Origin: a virus | Virus record (IMG/VR): IMGVR_UViG_3300043425_000901 | Span: 1-34,413 of that record | Direction: 5' to 3' (one strand) | DNA length: 34,413 nt | Shown here: positions 1-25,405 of the stretch, piece by piece | Numbering within the stretch: position 1 is the first letter of the stretch | How the letters are laid out: every line of letters begins with the position of its first letter | Made by a program: the position numbers and the translations under genes | Notes under the pieces: model-generated | The model's database searches: none | What the model saw: the letters and a program-made list of their open reading frames with translations, nothing else | Told to the model about the DNA's origin: nothing

Positions 1-84
1 AAGCTCAAGGAAGGCCAGTCCTTGAGCATCACGATTTCCGGCGCGTCGGTGGACTGCAATCTCTCCTGGACGGAGTTGACCTAA
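1..84 (+). CDS. C-terminal end of a gene entering from the left edge
   Basis: An open frame enters at base 1 and stops with TAA at 82-84, giving 27 residues that end in SWTELT. The stop overlaps the ATG of the FN3-LamG gene by one base, as in the other coupled tail genes. The residues alternate hydrophobic and polar (SLSITISG), fitting the last strands of a beta-sandwich tail-fibre domain. The frame matches that of the collagen-like gene leaving the right edge (582 bases, exactly 194 codons), so on a circular molecule the two would form one protein of about 221 residues. That join is inferred. The piece could equally belong to an unrelated tail protein. Confidence 0.6.
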   Translation, partial: KLKEGQSLSITISGASVDCNLSWTELT

Positions 85-1103
85 TGGCCCGCTTTCGCCG
101 CCTGAGCGATCTCAATCCGCCGATCCTGACCGCCGACGAGCGGTGGCAGTATTTGCTGCCCGGCGCACCCACGGGCGTCACCGCAACGGCCGGCAACGCC
201 CAGGCCACCGTGTCGTGGACGGCGCCGGCGAGCGTGGTTGCGATCACCGACTACTACGTCCAGTATTCGTCCAACGGCGGGTCGACGTGGACGACGTTCT
301 CGGACGGCACGTCAACGGCGACGAGTGCGACGGTCACGGGCTTGACGAATGGCACGGCCTACACGTTCCGCGTGGCGGCCGTCAGCGGCATCGGGCAGGG
401 GCCGTACAGCACGGCGAGTGGCAGCGTGACGCCGGGCGGCGATCCTCTGTTCGCCCAGGTGGCTCTGCTTCTCCACATGGACGGCAGCGGATCGACGTTT
501 GTTGACTCCAGCAAGTACGCGAGGGCGATCGCCGCGAACGGGGACGTTACGCAGTCCACGGCGCAGAGCCAGTTCGGCGGCAAGGCGGCGGCGTTTGACG
601 GGACTGGCGATGCGCTCACTATCCCTTACAGCAGTTCGCTGGATCTGGCGACTGGCGACTTCGCTATTGAGTGCTGGTGGTATCCGACAAGCACCGCCAA
701 CGGCCAAACGCTGTTCGCGTTCAACGGTTCCGGCCCGTATTCGCAGGTGCGAGTAGACGCCTACAACGACGGCTCTAGGTATTTCCGTTTCCTGACGCAG
801 TCTGGCGGCGACTGGATCAGTACGGCTGGAGGCGGCGCGTGGAACGTGAACCAATGGCACCACGTTGCCGCAGTGAGGACAGGCAGCCAGTTCAATTTGT
901 ACATCAACGGCACGTCTGCGATTTCGTTCTCGTCCAGCGGTTCGCTCGTCAACAACTCGTCTGGGGTCGCCATCGGTTCTTTGAACGGCGGCAACTACTG
1001 GGTCAGCGGGTACATCGACGAGTTCCGGGCAACCGTCGGACACAACAGGGGCTACACGGGCAGCACCATCACCGTCCCGACAGCCGCCTTCCCTGACGCA
1101 TGA
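84..1103 (+). CDS. Tail adhesin with fibronectin type III and LamG/ConA-like lectin domains
   Basis: A 339-residue protein with no signal peptide. Residues about 28-115 form a fibronectin type III domain (start GVTATAGNAQATVSW, end GSVTPGG). Residues about 125-330 form a concanavalin A/LamG-like jelly roll, shown by LLHMDGS, FDGTGD, ECWWYP, WHHVAAVR, LYINGT and a closing YIDEFR motif. LamG-type domains bind glycans, and FN3 domains in phage tail proteins act as spacers or weak surface binders. Its place between two collagen-like fibre genes points to a receptor-binding or decorating tail protein; this role is inferred. The ATG at 84 overlaps the stop of the preceding frame. Confidence 0.85.
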   Translation: MARFRRLSDLNPPILTADERWQYLLPGAPTGVTATAGNAQATVSWTAPASVVAITDYYVQYSSNGGSTWTTFSDGTSTATSATVTGLTNGTAYTFRVAAVSGIGQGPYSTASGSVTPGGDPLFAQVALLLHMDGSGSTFVDSSKYARAIAANGDVTQSTAQSQFGGKAAAFDGTGDALTIPYSSSLDLATGDFAIECWWYPTSTANGQTLFAFNGSGPYSQVRVDAYNDGSRYFRFLTQSGGDWISTAGGGAWNVNQWHHVAAVRTGSQFNLYINGTSAISFSSSGSLVNNSSGVAIGSLNGGNYWVSGYIDEFRATVGHNRGYTGSTITVPTAAFPDA

Positions 1104-18715: not shown

Positions 18716-20052
18716 AGAAGACCGGCGCGGCCCCGAAGCCGCGGGCACGGCGGCCCAGCAAAAAGGCCTTGAACGAGTTCGCCCTGCGGGCGCTCGCGGA
18801 TCACCTGCCCGTCGGCACGATCCTGAACGCGGCGACGATCGACGCCGAAGTGGCCGTCCGCACGACCTGCATCCTGGCCTGTGTGCGGTTCATCGCGTCG
18901 TCGCTCGCCTGCATGCCGACCGAGATCATCCGCCGGCGGCCGGGCTACCCGAAGACCCACGCCCACGACCTGGCCTGCTACGACGTCCTGACGTGGCGGC
19001 CCAACTCGTGGCAGAGCGACTTCGAGTACAAGGAAACGACCGCCTACCACCTCGCCCTCTACGGCCGGGCGTACTCGCGGATCGTGGCCGGCGAGAACGG
19101 CTTCTGCTCGGCTCTTGAGCCGCTGCACCCAAGCCGGATGTCGACGTTCCGCGGGGCCGATGGCAGCCTGCTGTACCGCTACCTGCTGCCGCGTGGCCAG
19201 TTCCGCGACTTCCAACAGGCCGAGATCGTCCATTACCGCTGGCTCTCGGACAACAGCTACGAGGGCCAGCTGCCGGCCGAGCTCTGCTCGACGAGCGTGG
19301 CGCTCGCCCGCAAGCTCGACGTTGCCGCGGCGTCGTTCTGGGACAACTCGGCCCGGCCGGACGGCGTGATCGAGACGCAGGAAGACGTGCCGCCCGAGGC
19401 TCAGTCGCGTTTCATCGAGCAGTGGCGGGAGATCTACGGCGGTGCCAAGAAGCGCGGCGCGACCGCGATGCTGCCCAAGAAGACGCAGTTCAAGCCGATC
19501 GAGGGAAACAGCAACGAAGCGAACCAGTTCATGGAGCTGCGGAAGTCGCTCCTGCCCGAAGTGGCCCGCGTCTACGGCATCCCGACGACGCTGCTCGGTG
19601 ACGCCGACATGGCGAAGTACTCGAACGTCGAGCAGGAGTTCGTGACGGCCCACGTTTTCGGGCTGCTGCCGTGGCAGAAGCGTTTCGAGGGGGCGATCGA
19701 CCGCTCGATCCTGCGGACCTACGACAACCCGATGGACGGCCGGCACTACTGCCGGCTGGACAGCCGGGCGCTGCTGCGTGGCGACACCCAGGCCCGCGTG
19801 GCCCTCTACCAGTTCCTGTTCAACTGCGGGGCGATCTCGCCCAACGAGCTGCGGGATCTCGAAGACCTGGACCTGCTCGAGAACCCGGCAGCGAACGCGA
19901 CCTACATGCAGCTGGGCTTCGCGCCGCTGGGCACATCGGCCACCGGCACCGGGCCGGACGCCCAGCCGGCCGCCGGCGAGGAGCAGTACCCGGCCGACAC
20001 GATCGAGCCCGAGGACGTGCCGGCCGACATGGAGGACGACGCCAATGGCTGA
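18694..20052 (+). CDS. Portal protein, HK97 family
   Basis: A 452-residue protein in the right place and of typical length for HK97-type portals (gp3). Family features: RTTCILACVRFIASSLACMP (wing/clip start), FEYKETTAYHLALYGRAYSR, ALEPLHPSRM, VHYRWLSD-type segment and a long stem helix region preceding VARVYGIPTTLLGDADMAKYSNVEQE, the last being highly characteristic. Twelve copies form the DNA channel at one capsid vertex and bind the terminase. The acidic, Pro-rich C-terminus (GEEQYPADTIEPED) is typical. ATG 18694 overlaps terL; GTG 18712 is a second possible start. Confidence 0.94.
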   Translation: MADHRAVKKTGAAPKPRARRPSKKALNEFALRALADHLPVGTILNAATIDAEVAVRTTCILACVRFIASSLACMPTEIIRRRPGYPKTHAHDLACYDVLTWRPNSWQSDFEYKETTAYHLALYGRAYSRIVAGENGFCSALEPLHPSRMSTFRGADGSLLYRYLLPRGQFRDFQQAEIVHYRWLSDNSYEGQLPAELCSTSVALARKLDVAAASFWDNSARPDGVIETQEDVPPEAQSRFIEQWREIYGGAKKRGATAMLPKKTQFKPIEGNSNEANQFMELRKSLLPEVARVYGIPTTLLGDADMAKYSNVEQEFVTAHVFGLLPWQKRFEGAIDRSILRTYDNPMDGRHYCRLDSRALLRGDTQARVALYQFLFNCGAISPNELRDLEDLDLLENPAANATYMQLGFAPLGTSATGTGPDAQPAAGEEQYPADTIEPEDVPADMEDDANG

Positions 20053-20752
20053 TGACATCGAGCGCCGCTACGTCCCCGCCGCCGTCGAGCCGATCGAGCT
20101 CGAGGAGCGGTCGGCCGCCGCCCCGACGATCAAAGGGATCAGCCCGCCGTTCAACTCGAAGAGCCACGACCTGGGTGGCTTTCGCGAGGTGTTCGCGCCG
20201 ACCGCGTTCGACAAGGTCGTGGGCCGCCATCGCAACGACCCGCGCGGCGGCGTGGATGTCGTCGCCCTGTTCAACCACGACGAGAACCAGGTGCTCGGCC
20301 GGACGACGTCCGGGACGCTGGAGATCTCGAAGGCCGACAAGGGTCTGGCATACTCGATCACGCCGCCCGACACGACGCTCGGCCGGGATCTGCTCACGCT
20401 GATCCGCCGGGGCGACATCTACGGGGCGTCGTTCGCGTTCTCGGTCGCCCAGGGCGGCGAGTCGTGGACGCAGGAGGCCGACGGCTCGGCCGTCCGCACG
20501 ATCACCGAGGTGGCGGGCCTGTACGACGTCTCTGTCGTCACCCGGCCGGCCTATCCGCAGTCGTCCGCGGCCCTGCGGTCGCTGGAGGCGTGGCGGAGCG
20601 AGAACCTCACGAGCCACGAAGTCGAGCAGCTGGCCCAGCAGGCCGCCGATCTCGAAGCCGACAAGCGGCGCCGCTGGTCCTACGCCCTGACAGCCGCAGC
20701 CGCGCGGCTCGTCTCCGCGAGGCTCAAGGCCAATGCACCACGAATCAAGTAG
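20045..20752 (+). CDS. Prohead maturation protease, HK97 family (S78)
   Basis: A 235-residue serine protease with the U35/S78 signature: IKGISPPFNS (29-38), EVFAPTAF, LFNHDENQVLGRT with catalytic His78, and GDIYGASFAF with nucleophile Ser129, then GLYDVSVVTRPAYPQS. It cleaves the scaffold-like N-terminal part of the major capsid protein and itself during prohead maturation. The ATG at 20045 overlaps the portal stop. In most HK97-like phages the capsid gene follows directly; here nine genes intervene before it, the main oddity of this genome. Confidence 0.94.
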   Translation: MADDIERRYVPAAVEPIELEERSAAAPTIKGISPPFNSKSHDLGGFREVFAPTAFDKVVGRHRNDPRGGVDVVALFNHDENQVLGRTTSGTLEISKADKGLAYSITPPDTTLGRDLLTLIRRGDIYGASFAFSVAQGGESWTQEADGSAVRTITEVAGLYDVSVVTRPAYPQSSAALRSLEAWRSENLTSHEVEQLAQQAADLEADKRRRWSYALTAAAARLVSARLKANAPRIK

Positions 20753-20900
20753 GGCCTGCCGCAAGTGCGGGCACCGCTGCCGCGTGATCACCTCGCGCCG
20801 CGTCGGCCTGGAGCAGGAGCAGCGGCTGGAGTGCAGCTGCTGCCATGCCCGCCGGAAGCGCGTCGTGCCCGCCACCGAGATCTGGAGCCGGAAACGATGA
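20733..20900 (+). CDS. 55-residue zinc-ribbon-like protein
   Basis: A short frame overlapping the end of the protease gene by 20 bases and coupled to the next by ATGA. It reads MHHESSRACRKCGHRCRVIT, then a charged link, then LECSCCHARRKRVVPATEIW. The C-x2-C and C-S-C-C pairs form a plausible zinc ribbon. Similar tiny Cys4 proteins occur in phage late operons; they may bind DNA, RNA or the transcription machinery. No specific role can be given. Confidence 0.6.
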   Translation: MHHESSRACRKCGHRCRVITSRRVGLEQEQRLECSCCHARRKRVVPATEIWSRKR

Positions 20901-21259
20901 ACGCCACGCCCGACTCCATCGCCGTCGTCGCGTCCCAGGTGAACGCGTTTGTTGTTAGCGCCCGCGAGCAGGCCCGGGACGGACTCACCTGGACCGAGTT
21001 CGGCCGGCTGCTCGTGCAGCTGCTCTACCTCGCCGTGGCCGGGCTCGACGCGGTGGCCACGCTCACCGGCCCGCAGAAGCGCGAGGTCGCCGTGACGGCC
21101 GCCGCCGTGCTGTTCGACACGCTCGCGGATAAGGCCGTGCCGGTGACGGCGTGGCCCGCCTGGATGCTCGTCCGCCCCGCGACTCGCCTACTCGTCCTCT
21201 CGCTCGCCGCCGGGGCCGTCGAGGCCCTGCTCAGGATCTCCAGGAGTGCTGCCGCATGA
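20897..21259 (+). CDS. Membrane-associated protein of the late cassette
   Basis: A 120-residue protein, ATG overlapping the preceding stop. It has helices ATPDSIAVVASQVNAFVVSA and LTWTEFGRLLVQLLYLAVAG, then QKREVAVTAAAVLFDTLADK and a C-terminal hydrophobic stretch PATRLLVLSLAAGAVEALLR. The second and last hydrophobic helices could enter a membrane. Size and layout fit a holin-like or holin-accessory protein, but there is no family signature. First of a chain of overlapping genes leading to the cysteine peptidase. Confidence 0.65.
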   Translation: MNATPDSIAVVASQVNAFVVSAREQARDGLTWTEFGRLLVQLLYLAVAGLDAVATLTGPQKREVAVTAAAVLFDTLADKAVPVTAWPAWMLVRPATRLLVLSLAAGAVEALLRISRSAAA

Positions 21260-21534
21260 TCACCATCCTCATCGTCGCCGCCGCCGTCGCGTTCCTGCTG
21301 TGGCCGAGCAAGAAGCCGGGCGAGGCCTCGCCGGCCATCGGCCTGTTCAAGGTGCCGCCGGTGCTGCCGCCGGCGGCACCCCCGGCCCAGGCCGGGCCGG
21401 ACCCGCGGACAGCGATCGACTCGCTGCTGGCCGTCCGGGACCGGCTCGCTCTCACTGACAGCCTTAACGAGGACTCTGCGAGGGCCGTCGACACGCTCTG
21501 GCTGGATCTGCTGCACGGGAGCCATCGGAAATGA
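21256..21534 (+). CDS. Single-pass membrane protein (Rz/spanin-like layout)
   Basis: A 92-residue protein with an N-terminal membrane segment (MITILIVAAAVAFLLW), a Lys-rich stop, a Pro/Ala-rich stretch (VLPPAAPPAQAGPDP) and a C-terminal helix (TAIDSLLAVRDRLALTDSL). N-in, C-out topology with a long extracytoplasmic helix is what inner-membrane spanins show, but no lipoprotein partner is seen next to it. Coupled on both sides by ATGA overlaps. Confidence 0.6.
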   Translation: MITILIVAAAVAFLLWPSKKPGEASPAIGLFKVPPVLPPAAPPAQAGPDPRTAIDSLLAVRDRLALTDSLNEDSARAVDTLWLDLLHGSHRK

Positions 21535-21989
21535 ACCCCCGCCACAAGCTCGCCCTGGCCGCCGCCCTGCTCGCCGGCGCCGCCCTCGTGGCGGCCGTCG
21601 AGTTTTGGCCGCGATCTGCCCCTGCCCCGGCCCCGTCGGGCGGCCTGTCGCTCCGCGGCAAGTTCATCGGCGCCGAGGCGGCCGAGGACGCCGCCGCGTT
21701 TGCGGGCGTGTGCGGCTCGATCGCCGACGCCCTCGAGCTCGACGGCACGGCCGCGAGCCCGCGGATCGCCACGGGCCTGCAGCTCGAAGAGCTTCGCGTG
21801 GGCGTCTCCGAGTTTCGGTTCGCGCCCCGTCCGCTGCGTGAGCGGCAGCCGCACGTCAAGGCGGCCGTCGGCCGCTACCTCGACGAGGCGGCCGGCACCT
21901 CGGGCGGGCCGATCGACGCCGAGGCCCGCGGCCGGTGGGTGACAGCGTTTCGCGAGCTGGCTCGGGCGGCCGAGGAGGCAGTCCGATGA
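21531..21989 (+). CDS. Membrane-anchored protein of unknown function
   Basis: A 152-residue protein. The N-terminal segment (HKLALAAALLAGAALVAAVEF) is a signal anchor or signal peptide. The extracytoplasmic part is Ala-rich and helical: SGGLSLRGKFIGAEAAEDAA, AFAGVCGSIADALELDG, then LQLEELRVGVSEF and WVTAFRELARAAEEAV. A single cysteine is present. It is not similar to known endolysins. ATGA overlaps tie it to both neighbours, so it is made together with the peptidase and small membrane proteins. Confidence 0.65.
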   Translation: MNPRHKLALAAALLAGAALVAAVEFWPRSAPAPAPSGGLSLRGKFIGAEAAEDAAAFAGVCGSIADALELDGTAASPRIATGLQLEELRVGVSEFRFAPRPLRERQPHVKAAVGRYLDEAAGTSGGPIDAEARGRWVTAFRELARAAEEAVR

Positions 21990-22204
21990 TCGGCTATCTG
22001 CTCAGCACCGCCGCGTTCGTACTCGGCTCGCTGGCCGTCCTGCTCGTGATCGGCTCGGCGGCCCTCATGCCGTTCATGGTAGCCACCGTGATCGTCGAGC
22101 TACGCGAGCTGCGTGAGCAGGTCGAGAAGCGGCCCGCCTGCGACTGCCGGCGGCCCGTCGTGCCGTTCCCGCGATCCCGTTTCGGGGAGCTGCTCGATGA
22201 CTAA
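21986..22204 (+). CDS. Small membrane protein with cytoplasmic tail
   Basis: A 72-residue protein. A long hydrophobic N-terminal region (IGYLLSTAAFVLGSLAVLLV, then IGSAALMPFMVATVIVE) can cross the membrane once or twice. A short heptad-like stretch (ELRELREQVEK) and a Cys/Pro-rich tail (ACDCRRPVVPFPR) follow. Size and topology are compatible with a class II holin. It overlaps the peptidase gene by 8 bases. Confidence 0.65.
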   Translation: MIGYLLSTAAFVLGSLAVLLVIGSAALMPFMVATVIVELRELREQVEKRPACDCRRPVVPFPRSRFGELLDD

Positions 22205-23288
22205 GCGGAAAGCCATCTGGACATGGTCTGCCGTCGGGTTCGTTGTCTTCGCGGCGATCCTGGGCGCGTTGATCGAGCATGTGACGCACCGGGCGCTGCG
22301 GGCAGCCGAGCAGCGGTTCGGCTACGTCCCGGACGCCGCGGGCACCAAGGCGTTCCTGCGTGAGCTGGCCGAGCCGACGTTCGCCCAGGCCGGTGCCGAC
22401 GCGATCCGCGCAGCTCAGGGCAAAGACGCTTACCTCTACCGCTACGCCGACCGCTGCCATCGCGCGAAGTACGGCACGCCCTACGGACCATGGAACCAGG
22501 GCGACCACGGGAGCTGCGTCTCGTTCGGCTGGGCCATGGGCTCGTACGTCGGGCAGTGCGTCGACTACTGCCAGGGGCAGCTCGACGAGCTGCCGCTCGT
22601 CGTGGCCACCGAGCCGATCTACGGCGGCTCGCGGACGGAAGGCCGACTGCCGCCGGTGACGTTCGCGGGCTACTCCGACGGAAGCTACGGTGGCGCCGCC
22701 GCCCGGTGGGTTTCGGGGCTGAAGAACGGCCGCGGCGGGATCCTGTTCCGCCAGAAATACGGCGACGTCGATCTCTCGTCCTACTCGATTCCACGGTCGC
22801 GAGATTGGGGAGCGCGGGGCGTGCCAGCAGATCTCGCCAAGCTCGCGAACCAGCACGTCGCGAAAAAGGTCGCCCTCTGCGAGGACTGGGCCAGCCTCAC
22901 GGCAGCCCTGGAGAACGGCCTCTGCGTGCCGATCTGCTCGAACGTCGGCTTCAAGGGTCAGGACAGGGACGCCGACGGGTTCCTCCGTCGCAGCGGCTCG
23001 TGGGCTCATTGCATGGTCGTGATCGGCCTGAAGTACGCGAAGAACAACGGCCCCGGCTCGCCTGAGCCGATGAAACAGCCGCGCGACGGCGTGCTCGTGA
23101 TGAATAGCTGGGGGTCTGGGTGGGTCCGGGGCGGCAAGCACCCGAGCGACCAGCCCGAAGGATCGTTCTGGATGAGCCGCACCGACGCCGAGGCGATCCT
23201 CGCCCAGGGCGACTCATTCGTGATCGGCGGCGTGGAAGGGTTCAAGCCGCGGCAGCTTGTGAACGACGGCTGGATGGAGGGACGCTAA
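22197..23288 (+). CDS. Membrane-anchored papain-family (C1) cysteine peptidase
   Basis: A 363-residue protein. Residues 8-26 (WTWSAVGFVVFAAILGALI) are a signal anchor; residues 27-90 form a helical pro-like region. The peptidase domain has the complete papain set: oxyanion Gln101 and nucleophile Cys107 in NQGDHGSCVSFGWA, His271 in GSWAHCMVVIG, and Asn303 in the hallmark MNSWGSGW. Many extra cysteines (87, 121, 125, 228, 243, 247, 272) suggest disulfides and extracytoplasmic action. Papain-like enzymes cleave proteins; CHAP and NlpC folds cut peptidoglycan but have a different order of motifs. It sits among small membrane proteins between protease and capsid genes, where it may serve host lysis or envelope breach. 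The enzyme class is secure, the role inferred. Confidence 0.9.
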   Translation: MTKRKAIWTWSAVGFVVFAAILGALIEHVTHRALRAAEQRFGYVPDAAGTKAFLRELAEPTFAQAGADAIRAAQGKDAYLYRYADRCHRAKYGTPYGPWNQGDHGSCVSFGWAMGSYVGQCVDYCQGQLDELPLVVATEPIYGGSRTEGRLPPVTFAGYSDGSYGGAAARWVSGLKNGRGGILFRQKYGDVDLSSYSIPRSRDWGARGVPADLAKLANQHVAKKVALCEDWASLTAALENGLCVPICSNVGFKGQDRDADGFLRRSGSWAHCMVVIGLKYAKNNGPGSPEPMKQPRDGVLVMNSWGSGWVRGGKHPSDQPEGSFWMSRTDAEAILAQGDSFVIGGVEGFKPRQLVNDGWMEGR

Positions 23289-23521
23289 TGCTCGAGCTCG
23301 TGTACTGGGTGATCCTGGGCAGCATCGCCGGCGGCGTCGCGAAGGCGATCGTGCCCTCGACCGTGCCGGCCGGCTGGGTGCCGACGATCGCCGTGGGCGT
23401 TCTCGGCTCGATTGCCGGCGGCCTGCCATTCGGCCGCGGCCCGGCCGGGCTCGTCGGCTCGATCGTCGGGGCCGTCGTCGTGCTCTACCTCCACCAGCTC
23501 TGGAGGGACAGCCATGCTTGA
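23288..23521 (+). CDS. GlsB/YeaQ-like small membrane protein, holin candidate
   Basis: A 77-residue protein directly after the peptidase (ATG overlaps TAA). Three hydrophobic, Gly-rich segments are seen: LVYWVILGSIAGGVAKAIV, WVPTIAVGVLGSIAGGLPFG and AGLVGSIVGAVVVLYLHQLW. The repeated GSIAGG motifs resemble the GlsB/YeaQ/YmgE (transglycosylase-associated) family of small three-helix membrane proteins. Three segments, small size and a place right after a lytic-type enzyme suit a holin. The family resemblance is moderate. Confidence 0.7.
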   Translation: MLELVYWVILGSIAGGVAKAIVPSTVPAGWVPTIAVGVLGSIAGGLPFGRGPAGLVGSIVGAVVVLYLHQLWRDSHA

Positions 23522-23804
23522 CATACGTCAACACGAGAAGCGACTTGCCGTCGCCGCCGTAGTGCTGGCGGCCGTCGTCTGGTGGCTGGCCACGGCACCA
23601 GAGTCGCCGATCCGGCCCGATCCGCCCCGTCCGCAGCGTCCCGTCCTGCGGTTCCTCGGCCGCGTGGCCCAGGTGGCAGCCAAGCTCGGCCTGACGGCCC
23701 TCTGGGTGTTCGAGCCGGCCCCGCCCGACGCCGACGAGGTGCAGCTCGTCCACGCCGTGATCGGCGCCGACGGCCACCAAGTTCTCGATAATGCGAGGTG
23801 GTAG
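23514..23804 (+). CDS. Single-pass membrane protein
   Basis: A 96-residue protein overlapping the previous gene by 8 bases. A basic N-terminus (MLDIRQHEKR) is followed by one membrane segment (LAVAAVVLAAVVWWLA), a Pro/Arg-rich linker (PESPIRPDPPRPQRP), then an amphipathic helix LRFLGRVAQVAAKLGLTALW and an acidic end. Topology resembles accessory lysis proteins. No recognised family. Confidence 0.6.
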   Translation: MLDIRQHEKRLAVAAVVLAAVVWWLATAPESPIRPDPPRPQRPVLRFLGRVAQVAAKLGLTALWVFEPAPPDADEVQLVHAVIGADGHQVLDNARW

Positions 23805-24104
23805 ATGTACGACGCCGCCCACTCCCTCTGGCACTGGCTGCTGTGGTCGCTCGCGATCGCGTCCCACGATCCGGCGTCGATCGAAGCCGAGCGCGCCCGG
23901 GCCGCTGGCTGCGTGAGCGTGGCCTATGCGGCCATGGCCCAAGAGCCGCCACCCGCCCCGGCCCCTGCGAAGGCGGCCCCGCCGGCCAAGCCCGCCTGCC
24001 GTGAGTGCAACGGCACGGGCCGCATCTACCGCCCCGACGGCGGCTACGTCCGCTGCAAGTGCGGCGCGTGCTCAACGGGCACCTGCCCGAAAGCTCTACC
24101 GTAG
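23805..24104 (+). CDS. Protein with DnaJ-type zinc-binding motif
   Basis: A 99-residue protein that starts one base after the preceding stop. The N-terminal hydrophobic segment (SLWHWLLWSLAIASHD) may anchor it. After an Ala/Pro linker, the C-terminus carries CRECNGTGRIYRPDGG and RCKCGACSTGTC: Cys65, Cys68, Cys84, Cys86, Cys89 and Cys94 in the CxxCxGxG style of the DnaJ central zinc domain. That motif binds zinc and unfolded proteins or disulfide substrates. It may be a small tethered chaperone or redox partner for the Cys-rich peptidase; this link is inferred. Confidence 0.65.
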   Translation: MYDAAHSLWHWLLWSLAIASHDPASIEAERARAAGCVSVAYAAMAQEPPPAPAPAKAAPPAKPACRECNGTGRIYRPDGGYVRCKCGACSTGTCPKALP

Positions 24105-24184: not shown

Positions 24185-25405
24185 ATGAACAAGCTCCGCC
24201 TGGCCCAGGACGAGATCGCCACCCTCCTTCCGCAGATCGAGAACCTGCGGAACGTCGACCCCTCGGACGACAAGGACGGCGCGGCCGCCGCGGCCCTGGA
24301 TCGGGCGCTGCAGCGGGCCGACGAGCTGAACGGCATCGTGGAGCGTGAGAACGCGATCGAGGCCCGGCTCGCCGCGGCCCGTGCGAAGCTCACGCCCGTG
24401 GCCGACAGCGAGCCACGCGGCGTCGTCGAGAAGGGCGAAGAGCTGCGGACCAAGGCCGAGCGGTCGATCATCGGCGGCCTCCGCGGCTACTCGAGCCGTG
24501 AAGCGGCCGACCGCGTCGGCGGCTACCTGCGGCAGCTCGTGACGGGCGAAGTTCGCGCCATGGGCGAGACGAGCCCGGCGTACGACGCGAAGGGTGTCGA
24601 TTTCGTGATGCAGGAGCTCTACGGGGCGATCGTCAACCGGCTGACCTACAGCTCGGTGGCGCTGCAGCTCGCGAGCGTCTACACCCCGTCGAGCAACAGC
24701 ATCAAGATCCCGAAGATCGGCGACGCCACCGTCTCGATCGTCGCCGAGGGCGTGGCCACCAGCGACCAGGACATCTCGTCCGACGGCGCGACCGTGACGC
24801 TCTACGAGCACCGGCTCTCGGTGGCGATCTCCCGGTCGCTCCTCGAGGACTCGCCGCTCGACGTGGCGGGTGTCGTGGCCGAGCGGATCGGCGTGGCCTA
24901 CGCGAAACACGTCGACAGCCTCTGGCTGGCGGGCAACGCGAACCCCGCGATCACCGGCCTGGCCGGTGCCGTGGCGGCCGGAAACACGATCACCGTGGCG
25001 GCCAACGCGGCCACCAGCCTCAACAACCTGGCCGACGTCGTCGGCAAGGTCGACGAGCAGGTGATGGAGACCGCGTGGGTGTGCAGCCGGGCCGGCTGGG
25101 TCGACCTGATGAAGATCTGGTCCGCTCAGCAGACGACCATGACGGTCGGCGGCGGGCGGGTGGTGCCGACGGTGTTCGGTGCCCCGGTCTACCTCGTCAA
25201 GGGTCTGCCCGCCACCACGCTCGCCCTCTACGGCGACTTCAAGATGGCCTCGGCCATCGCGGTGAAGTCGTCCGGCCTGGAGATCGACGTGGCCCGCGAG
25301 CTGCTCATCCGCAATCGGCAGGTGCTCTACGCGGCCTCCCAGCGTGCGGGCGTGGCCAACCACGACGCCCAGTACGTCGGCCGGCTCGCCAAGGCTGCCA
25401 GCTGA
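24185..25405 (+). CDS. Major capsid protein, HK97 gp5 family
   Basis: A 406-residue protein of family length. Residues 1-105 are the helical delta/scaffold domain (LAQDEIATLLPQIENLRNVD; VERENAIEARLAAARAKLTP) removed by the prohead protease. The mature part shows the HK97 fold markers: VDFVMQELYGAIVNRL, SSNSIKIPKIGDATVSIVAE-type strand, VTLYEHRLSVAISRSLLEDS (A and P domains), HVDSLWLAGNANPAITGLAG and a C-terminal FGAPVYLVKGLP then ALYGDFKMAS, IDVARELLIRNRQVLYAASQR. The ATG at 24185 is the only start giving the natural N-terminus. The preceding 80-base spacer contains a GTCCCACGCGGGAC dyad (24126-24139). Confidence 0.95.
   Translation: MNKLRLAQDEIATLLPQIENLRNVDPSDDKDGAAAAALDRALQRADELNGIVERENAIEARLAAARAKLTPVADSEPRGVVEKGEELRTKAERSIIGGLRGYSSREAADRVGGYLRQLVTGEVRAMGETSPAYDAKGVDFVMQELYGAIVNRLTYSSVALQLASVYTPSSNSIKIPKIGDATVSIVAEGVATSDQDISSDGATVTLYEHRLSVAISRSLLEDSPLDVAGVVAERIGVAYAKHVDSLWLAGNANPAITGLAGAVAAGNTITVAANAATSLNNLADVVGKVDEQVMETAWVCSRAGWVDLMKIWSAQQTTMTVGGGRVVPTVFGAPVYLVKGLPATTLALYGDFKMASAIAVKSSGLEIDVARELLIRNRQVLYAASQRAGVANHDAQYVGRLAKAAS

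Follow-up and report, generated by a model that had tools for sequence, protein, structure and literature searches.

A membrane-anchored papain-type (C1) peptidase in a conserved gene block of Planctomycetota phages: a candidate lysis enzyme

The stretch of DNA analysed here, referred to as the window, comprises the 34,413 bases of a virus record in IMG/VR. Since it carries terminase, portal, prohead protease, capsid and tail genes together with an integrase (among 25 of 42 Pfam families listed), its source is a tailed, probably temperate phage. On the plus strand, an ORF of 363 aa extends from an ATG at 22197 to a stop codon at 23286-23288, and its start overlaps the 3′ end of the preceding gene (21986..22204) by 8 bases; the coordinates and residue numbering of the initial annotation were exact. 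This ORF, which encodes a C1-type cysteine peptidase, lies in a block of small genes between those for prohead protease and major capsid protein, listed below with the number of loci and the type of evidence in parentheses.

19778..20752, plus strand: prohead protease S78, adjoining the block on its 5′ side
20897..21259, plus strand: holin-like small membrane protein of 120 aa with one hydrophobic segment (HMM matches in 134 loci; hydropathy; putative as a holin)
21256..21534, plus strand: small protein with an N-terminal TM segment, in a subset of relatives (24 loci; hydropathy)
21531..21989, plus strand: exported or TM-anchored helical partner ('LIP'), a lipoprotein in some relatives (146 loci)
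21986..22204, plus strand: small protein with one TM segment and a coiled-coil-like tail, in close relatives only (13 loci; hydropathy)
22197..23288, plus strand: papain-type (C1) cysteine peptidase with an N-terminal membrane anchor (catalytic conservation, family PF00112 matches, AF2 model, Foldseek)
22221..22286, plus strand: N-terminal transmembrane helix of the peptidase, residues about 9-30, after basic MTKRK (hydropathy; model helix)
22497..22499, plus strand: Gln101, oxyanion hole (invariant, 160/160)
22515..22517, plus strand: Cys107, nucleophile (invariant, 160/160)
23007..23009, plus strand: His271, base (invariant, 160/160)
23103..23105, plus strand: Asn303 in NSWG, NSWGSGW in the window (Asn in 158/160, Gln in 2/160)
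23288..23521, plus strand: two-TM protein of GlsB/YeaQ (Transgly_assoc) type (86 loci; PF04226 matches in relatives)
23514..23804, plus strand: small TM-anchored protein with a conserved C-terminal 'H(G/A)RGW' (120 loci)
23805..24104, plus strand: small Cys-rich protein with DnaJ-like CxxCxGxG (121 loci; thioredoxin domain in relatives)
24185..25405, plus strand: major capsid protein, adjoining the block on its 3′ side

The C1 gene itself was counted in 196 loci in this survey, and some loci enter the locus counts of the block more than once, as overlapping copies.

As sole query, the window protein returned no Pfam, PHROG or PDB match in sequence searches, and a query with nine close relatives still gave no family match; a more diverse family set was required before sequence searches matched. 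PF00112 was then matched by 15 of 50 family members at E≤1, with a best E of 2.7e-9. One relative from a Gemmatales MAG (L082; 33% identity in the alignment, 31% in the scan) reached 26.7 bits against a curated cut-off of 20.7, while the window protein itself had no match over the cut-off. The AF2 model built from 50 sequences presented a papain fold (pLDDT 93.5, pTM 0.88), compared to a pLDDT of 40.5 with 9 sequences only. Foldseek comparison of the model with the PDB gave xylellain as the top match (E 8e-10, probability 1.00) and 202 matches at E<1e-3. The structure search also matched the model to viral C1 proteins from elsewhere. The catalytic order Gln-Cys-His-Asn is complete, and no match over the cut-off to CHAP (PF05257) or NlpC/P60 (PF00877) was obtained in the C1 records. 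Residue conservation, family matches and the confident papain fold therefore support the initial description of a papain-family peptidase with a complete catalytic set. We consider the papain fold and homology to be near certain, and the fold and catalytic set suggest that the protein is probably an active peptidase.

The gene is under purifying selection, with a dN/dS of about 0.21-0.25 against four relatives. In two distant members (L142 and L155), Gln replaces the catalytic Asn303 (QSWG), and these proteins may still be active. The window protein has eight cysteines, of which only C107 is invariant; the many cysteines, taken at first as a sign of action outside the cytoplasm, thus say little on that point. 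C247 (22935-22937) and C272 (23010-23012, adjoining the catalytic His) are well conserved, tend to be lost together, and might form a disulfide or a metal site: these positions covary as C/C in 138 sequences, A/E or A/Q in 16, and S/C in 6. Because the changes are largely clade-linked and the 6 S/C sequences exist, a disulfide is a tentative reading.

The membrane anchor, which was also part of the initial annotation, was recovered as a hydropathy maximum of 2.0 (19-residue KD) and as a helix of residues 10-38 in the model. By the positive-inside rule, it is predicted to be oriented N-in/C-out. Of the non-redundant members, 48 in number, about 30 share an N-terminal hydrophobic helix, about 16 are without it, and one has a lipobox. 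Members of the anchorless branch are about 300 aa long, and several of the loci viewed adjoin a different small TM-plus-coiled-coil protein. Two loci of this branch contain a second cysteine-peptidase-like ORF (C39-like 'KTHFSC', by eye), which lies about 0.6 kb downstream of C1 and is read from the other strand (L098:2395-2961 (-) and L099:9498-10058 (-)).

In 165 C1 loci the upstream sequence was long enough to be judged; 129 of them had the exported partner upstream of C1 and 28 more had a related type, A8, for a total of 157. According to hhalign, the two partner types A6 and A8 are related (probability 87.5%, E 3.6e-6); single-sequence comparison of the upstream gene of L082 with the partner was negative. 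No convincing match was obtained in Pfam for the exported partner, or among Pfam or PHROG holin families for the holin-like protein. The GlsB/YeaQ-type (Transgly_assoc) membrane protein repeatedly adjoins C1 (window 23288-23521; L187:12104-12352), and its relatives in L187 and L011 matched PF04226, the latter below the cut-off. Relatives of the Cys-rich protein in planctomycete genomes (L169:621-1364 (-), L166:2945-3466 (+)) have a thioredoxin domain, some with a lipobox.

The block (window 20897-24104) was found in three positions, namely between prohead protease and capsid genes, upstream of terminase, and between tail genes and integrase. It relocates as a unit between phages, as seen when the window is compared with L009, L036, L062, L066, L033 and L072, and in L179 it is paired with a different terminase and a lambda-type portal. 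In lambda-like phages, lysis genes sit where the block-terminase arrangement places them.

Profile scans of IMG/VR identified 261 stretches encoding C1 relatives, and a broader profile raised the confirmed number to 417. No relatives were found in INPHARED with three members as query, in PLSDB with one member as query, or in the PHROG collection as searched. In order to avoid counting only loci pulled in by C1, terminase relatives of the window were fetched separately, and all 13 of those spanning prohead protease to capsid carried C1 at that place. The gene is thus phage-encoded, as initially claimed, and not an assembly error. It was also described as rare in tailed-phage late operons, which does not hold here, since C1 is a core and abundant gene in this uncultured phage lineage.

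A first profile scan of public genome contigs found no C1 relative; once the alignment had been broadened, a repeat scan yielded two, both in Planctomycetota MAGs. When genomes of Planctomycetota, the phylum of the Gemmatales MAG and the one sampled, were scanned, 13 of 392 had a C1 match. L179 is a clear prophage in which the C1 block, terminase and lambda-type portal adjoin a chromosomal gene of DUF1559, a family typical of planctomycetes. These results strongly support C1 as a phage gene with planctomycete hosts, in agreement with the host suggested initially.

Classical lysins were surveyed by profile in records carrying the C1 block. Phage_lysozyme was not found in 32 records, and Amidase_2, SLT, NLPC_P60, CHAP, M23, Amidase_3 and M15_3 gave nothing over the cut-off in 28 records including the window; a single CHAP match, in G406, was below the cut-off. 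Positive controls matched for all eight families counted, and GH108 was left out because its control gave no match. Since many of the surveyed records are fragments, which may hide a lysin, the Pfam listing of the window itself spans 25 of 42 families, and only known lysin types are detectable, the absence is strong only as a pattern across records.

Among known systems, MEROPS family C1 (PF00112) includes the nearest solved structure, xylellain from Xylella fastidiosa (3ois), a bacterial C1 enzyme with the same papain fold, Q-C-H-N order and NSWG motif. The window gene differs from MEROPS C1 peptidases in being a phage gene of a late block with an N-terminal membrane anchor, and its product has about 11-19% identity to the solved structures listed and has a longer Cys-to-His stretch than papain. 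CHAP and NlpC/P60 phage endolysins have in common with it a papain-like fold, Cys/His catalysis and probable use in host lysis, but they are different families, and the window protein has the full protease set including Gln and Asn. PeiW and PeiP, the pseudomurein endoisopeptidases of methanogen (pro)phages, are also phage cysteine peptidases, directed at an unusual peptide-linked wall; they belong to another peptidase family, C71, and to archaeal hosts. SAR endolysins such as P1 Lyz combine an N-terminal anchor and a periplasmic catalytic domain with soluble relatives, as predicted for the C1 family, but are lysozymes. Papain folds are also present in BFVD C1-domain proteins of uncultured Caudovirales (for example A0A6J5TCZ4 and A0A6J5Q5J0; 15-17% identity), with no known link to the block.

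What computation shows is the homology, fold and catalytic set of the protein, its anchor, the conservation of the block, the association with planctomycetes and the lack of common lysin families. We lean, at a little better than even, towards C1 being a probably active peptidase with an inner-membrane signal anchor and a periplasmic catalytic domain, which serves as hydrolase in a mobile, late lysis cassette of Planctomycetota tailed phages. A role in lysis, which the initial annotation had also proposed, is the more probable case, as the block is conserved and classical lysins are lacking in the surveyed records; lysis by cutting protein is plausible. The cassette would consist of the holin-like membrane protein, the exported helical partner, the C1 peptidase, the small membrane proteins and the thiol/zinc protein. 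We infer activity, topology, a release step, a substrate and lysis itself in the following way. The peptidase would be produced late, then exported while still anchored and silent, and a timing event at the membrane, involving the holin-like protein and perhaps the partner, would free it. The freed enzyme would then cut an envelope polypeptide (protein layer, lipoprotein links or peptidoglycan peptides), resulting in bursting of the cell. More speculatively, thioredoxin-bearing neighbours could keep the cysteine enzyme active in the periplasm, the window's own Cys-rich protein being without that domain. Among endolysins, the occurrence of a catalytic domain both as a soluble and as an anchored protein is a known pattern; the two C1 forms match both known modes of endolysin delivery and were counted in favour of lysis. 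Counted against it were the spot between prohead protease and capsid, which is unusual for lysis genes, and the holin-like protein, which is outside known holin families.

As for the substrate, envelope proteins, lipoprotein links and stem peptides are possible candidates. The earlier rationale of a protein-rich planctomycete envelope is out of date, as these bacteria possess sacculi with DAP peptidoglycan that are sensitive to lysozyme (PMC4432640). C1 enzymes are usually proteases, and with peptidoglycan present in these hosts (PMC4432640), protein cutting alone may not suffice for lysis. We treat as a tentative and rather doubtful possibility that a whole planctomycete phage lineage swapped its classical endolysin for an exported papain-type protease that cuts envelope protein, aided by an exported partner and, in some relatives, by an activity-keeping periplasmic thioredoxin.

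The enzyme could instead serve lysis as a hydrolase of peptidoglycan peptide bonds, in which case it would be an endolysin of C1 type that cleaves stem peptides or cross-links in the manner of CHAP and NlpC/P60. Papain-like folds in phages are mostly peptidoglycan hydrolases (PMC10318531), lysozyme makes planctomycete sacculi disintegrate (PMC4432640), and the surveyed records revealed no other lysin. We think this unlikely, since the family is C1 (PF00112), its PDB matches are proteases (xylellain, cathepsins), the Q-C-H-N protease set is complete, and no endolysin-type structure occurs among the best 50 fold matches listed. It is improbable, too, that C1 is an exported protease remodelling the host surface during infection or lysogeny, whether for superinfection exclusion, to process a receptor or S-layer, or for release without lysis. 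Such a role would suit the N-terminal anchor, the lipoprotein and thioredoxin partners, and the S-layer-associated C1 protease Cwp84 at rank 39 among the fold matches, but C1 is core in late operons beside a holin-like protein with no other lysin detected, and soluble, unsecreted relatives exist.

The place of C1 between prohead protease and capsid genes in the window and many relatives could also point to a head-maturation or virion protease working with the S78 prohead protease. We consider this very improbable, because in other phages the block precedes terminase or sits between tail genes and integrase, a dedicated S78 protease is already present, and a membrane anchor is ill-suited to a head protein. 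That the ORF is inactive or misassigned, or a host gene put here by assembly error, might be thought from the absence of a family match for the window protein alone; this explanation is already contradicted and can practically be dismissed, as Q, C and H are conserved in 160 of 160 sequences, dN/dS is about 0.2, the fold is confident, and gene order is the same in 13 of 13 independently found relatives.

Little is known about how phages open planctomycete cells. Our search of the open-access literature on planctomycetes and phage lysis found no dedicated study, and one on phage C1 peptidases found nothing relevant. The C1 family is a concrete candidate with conserved partner genes. As the hydrolase of a lysis cassette, it would be an envelope hydrolase that phages have drawn from a family seldom put to such use, and if it is the lysis enzyme, its type lies outside the usual list of lysozyme, amidase and CHAP. 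Because the C1 block recurs in hundreds of contigs from uncultured phages and in Planctomycetota prophages, and those surveyed are without a detectable ordinary lysin, phages with this block may open their hosts with a peptidase in place of a classical endolysin. The family would also give a handle on the load-bearing part of the planctomycete envelope, and could be a marker gene to recognise Planctomycetota phages in metagenomes.

Outside the block, the tail region of the window (84-1103) encodes a protein with Fn3 and Laminin_G_3 (lectin-like) domains, which probably binds a receptor or surface. Proteins related to it are found again close to the block in other phages.
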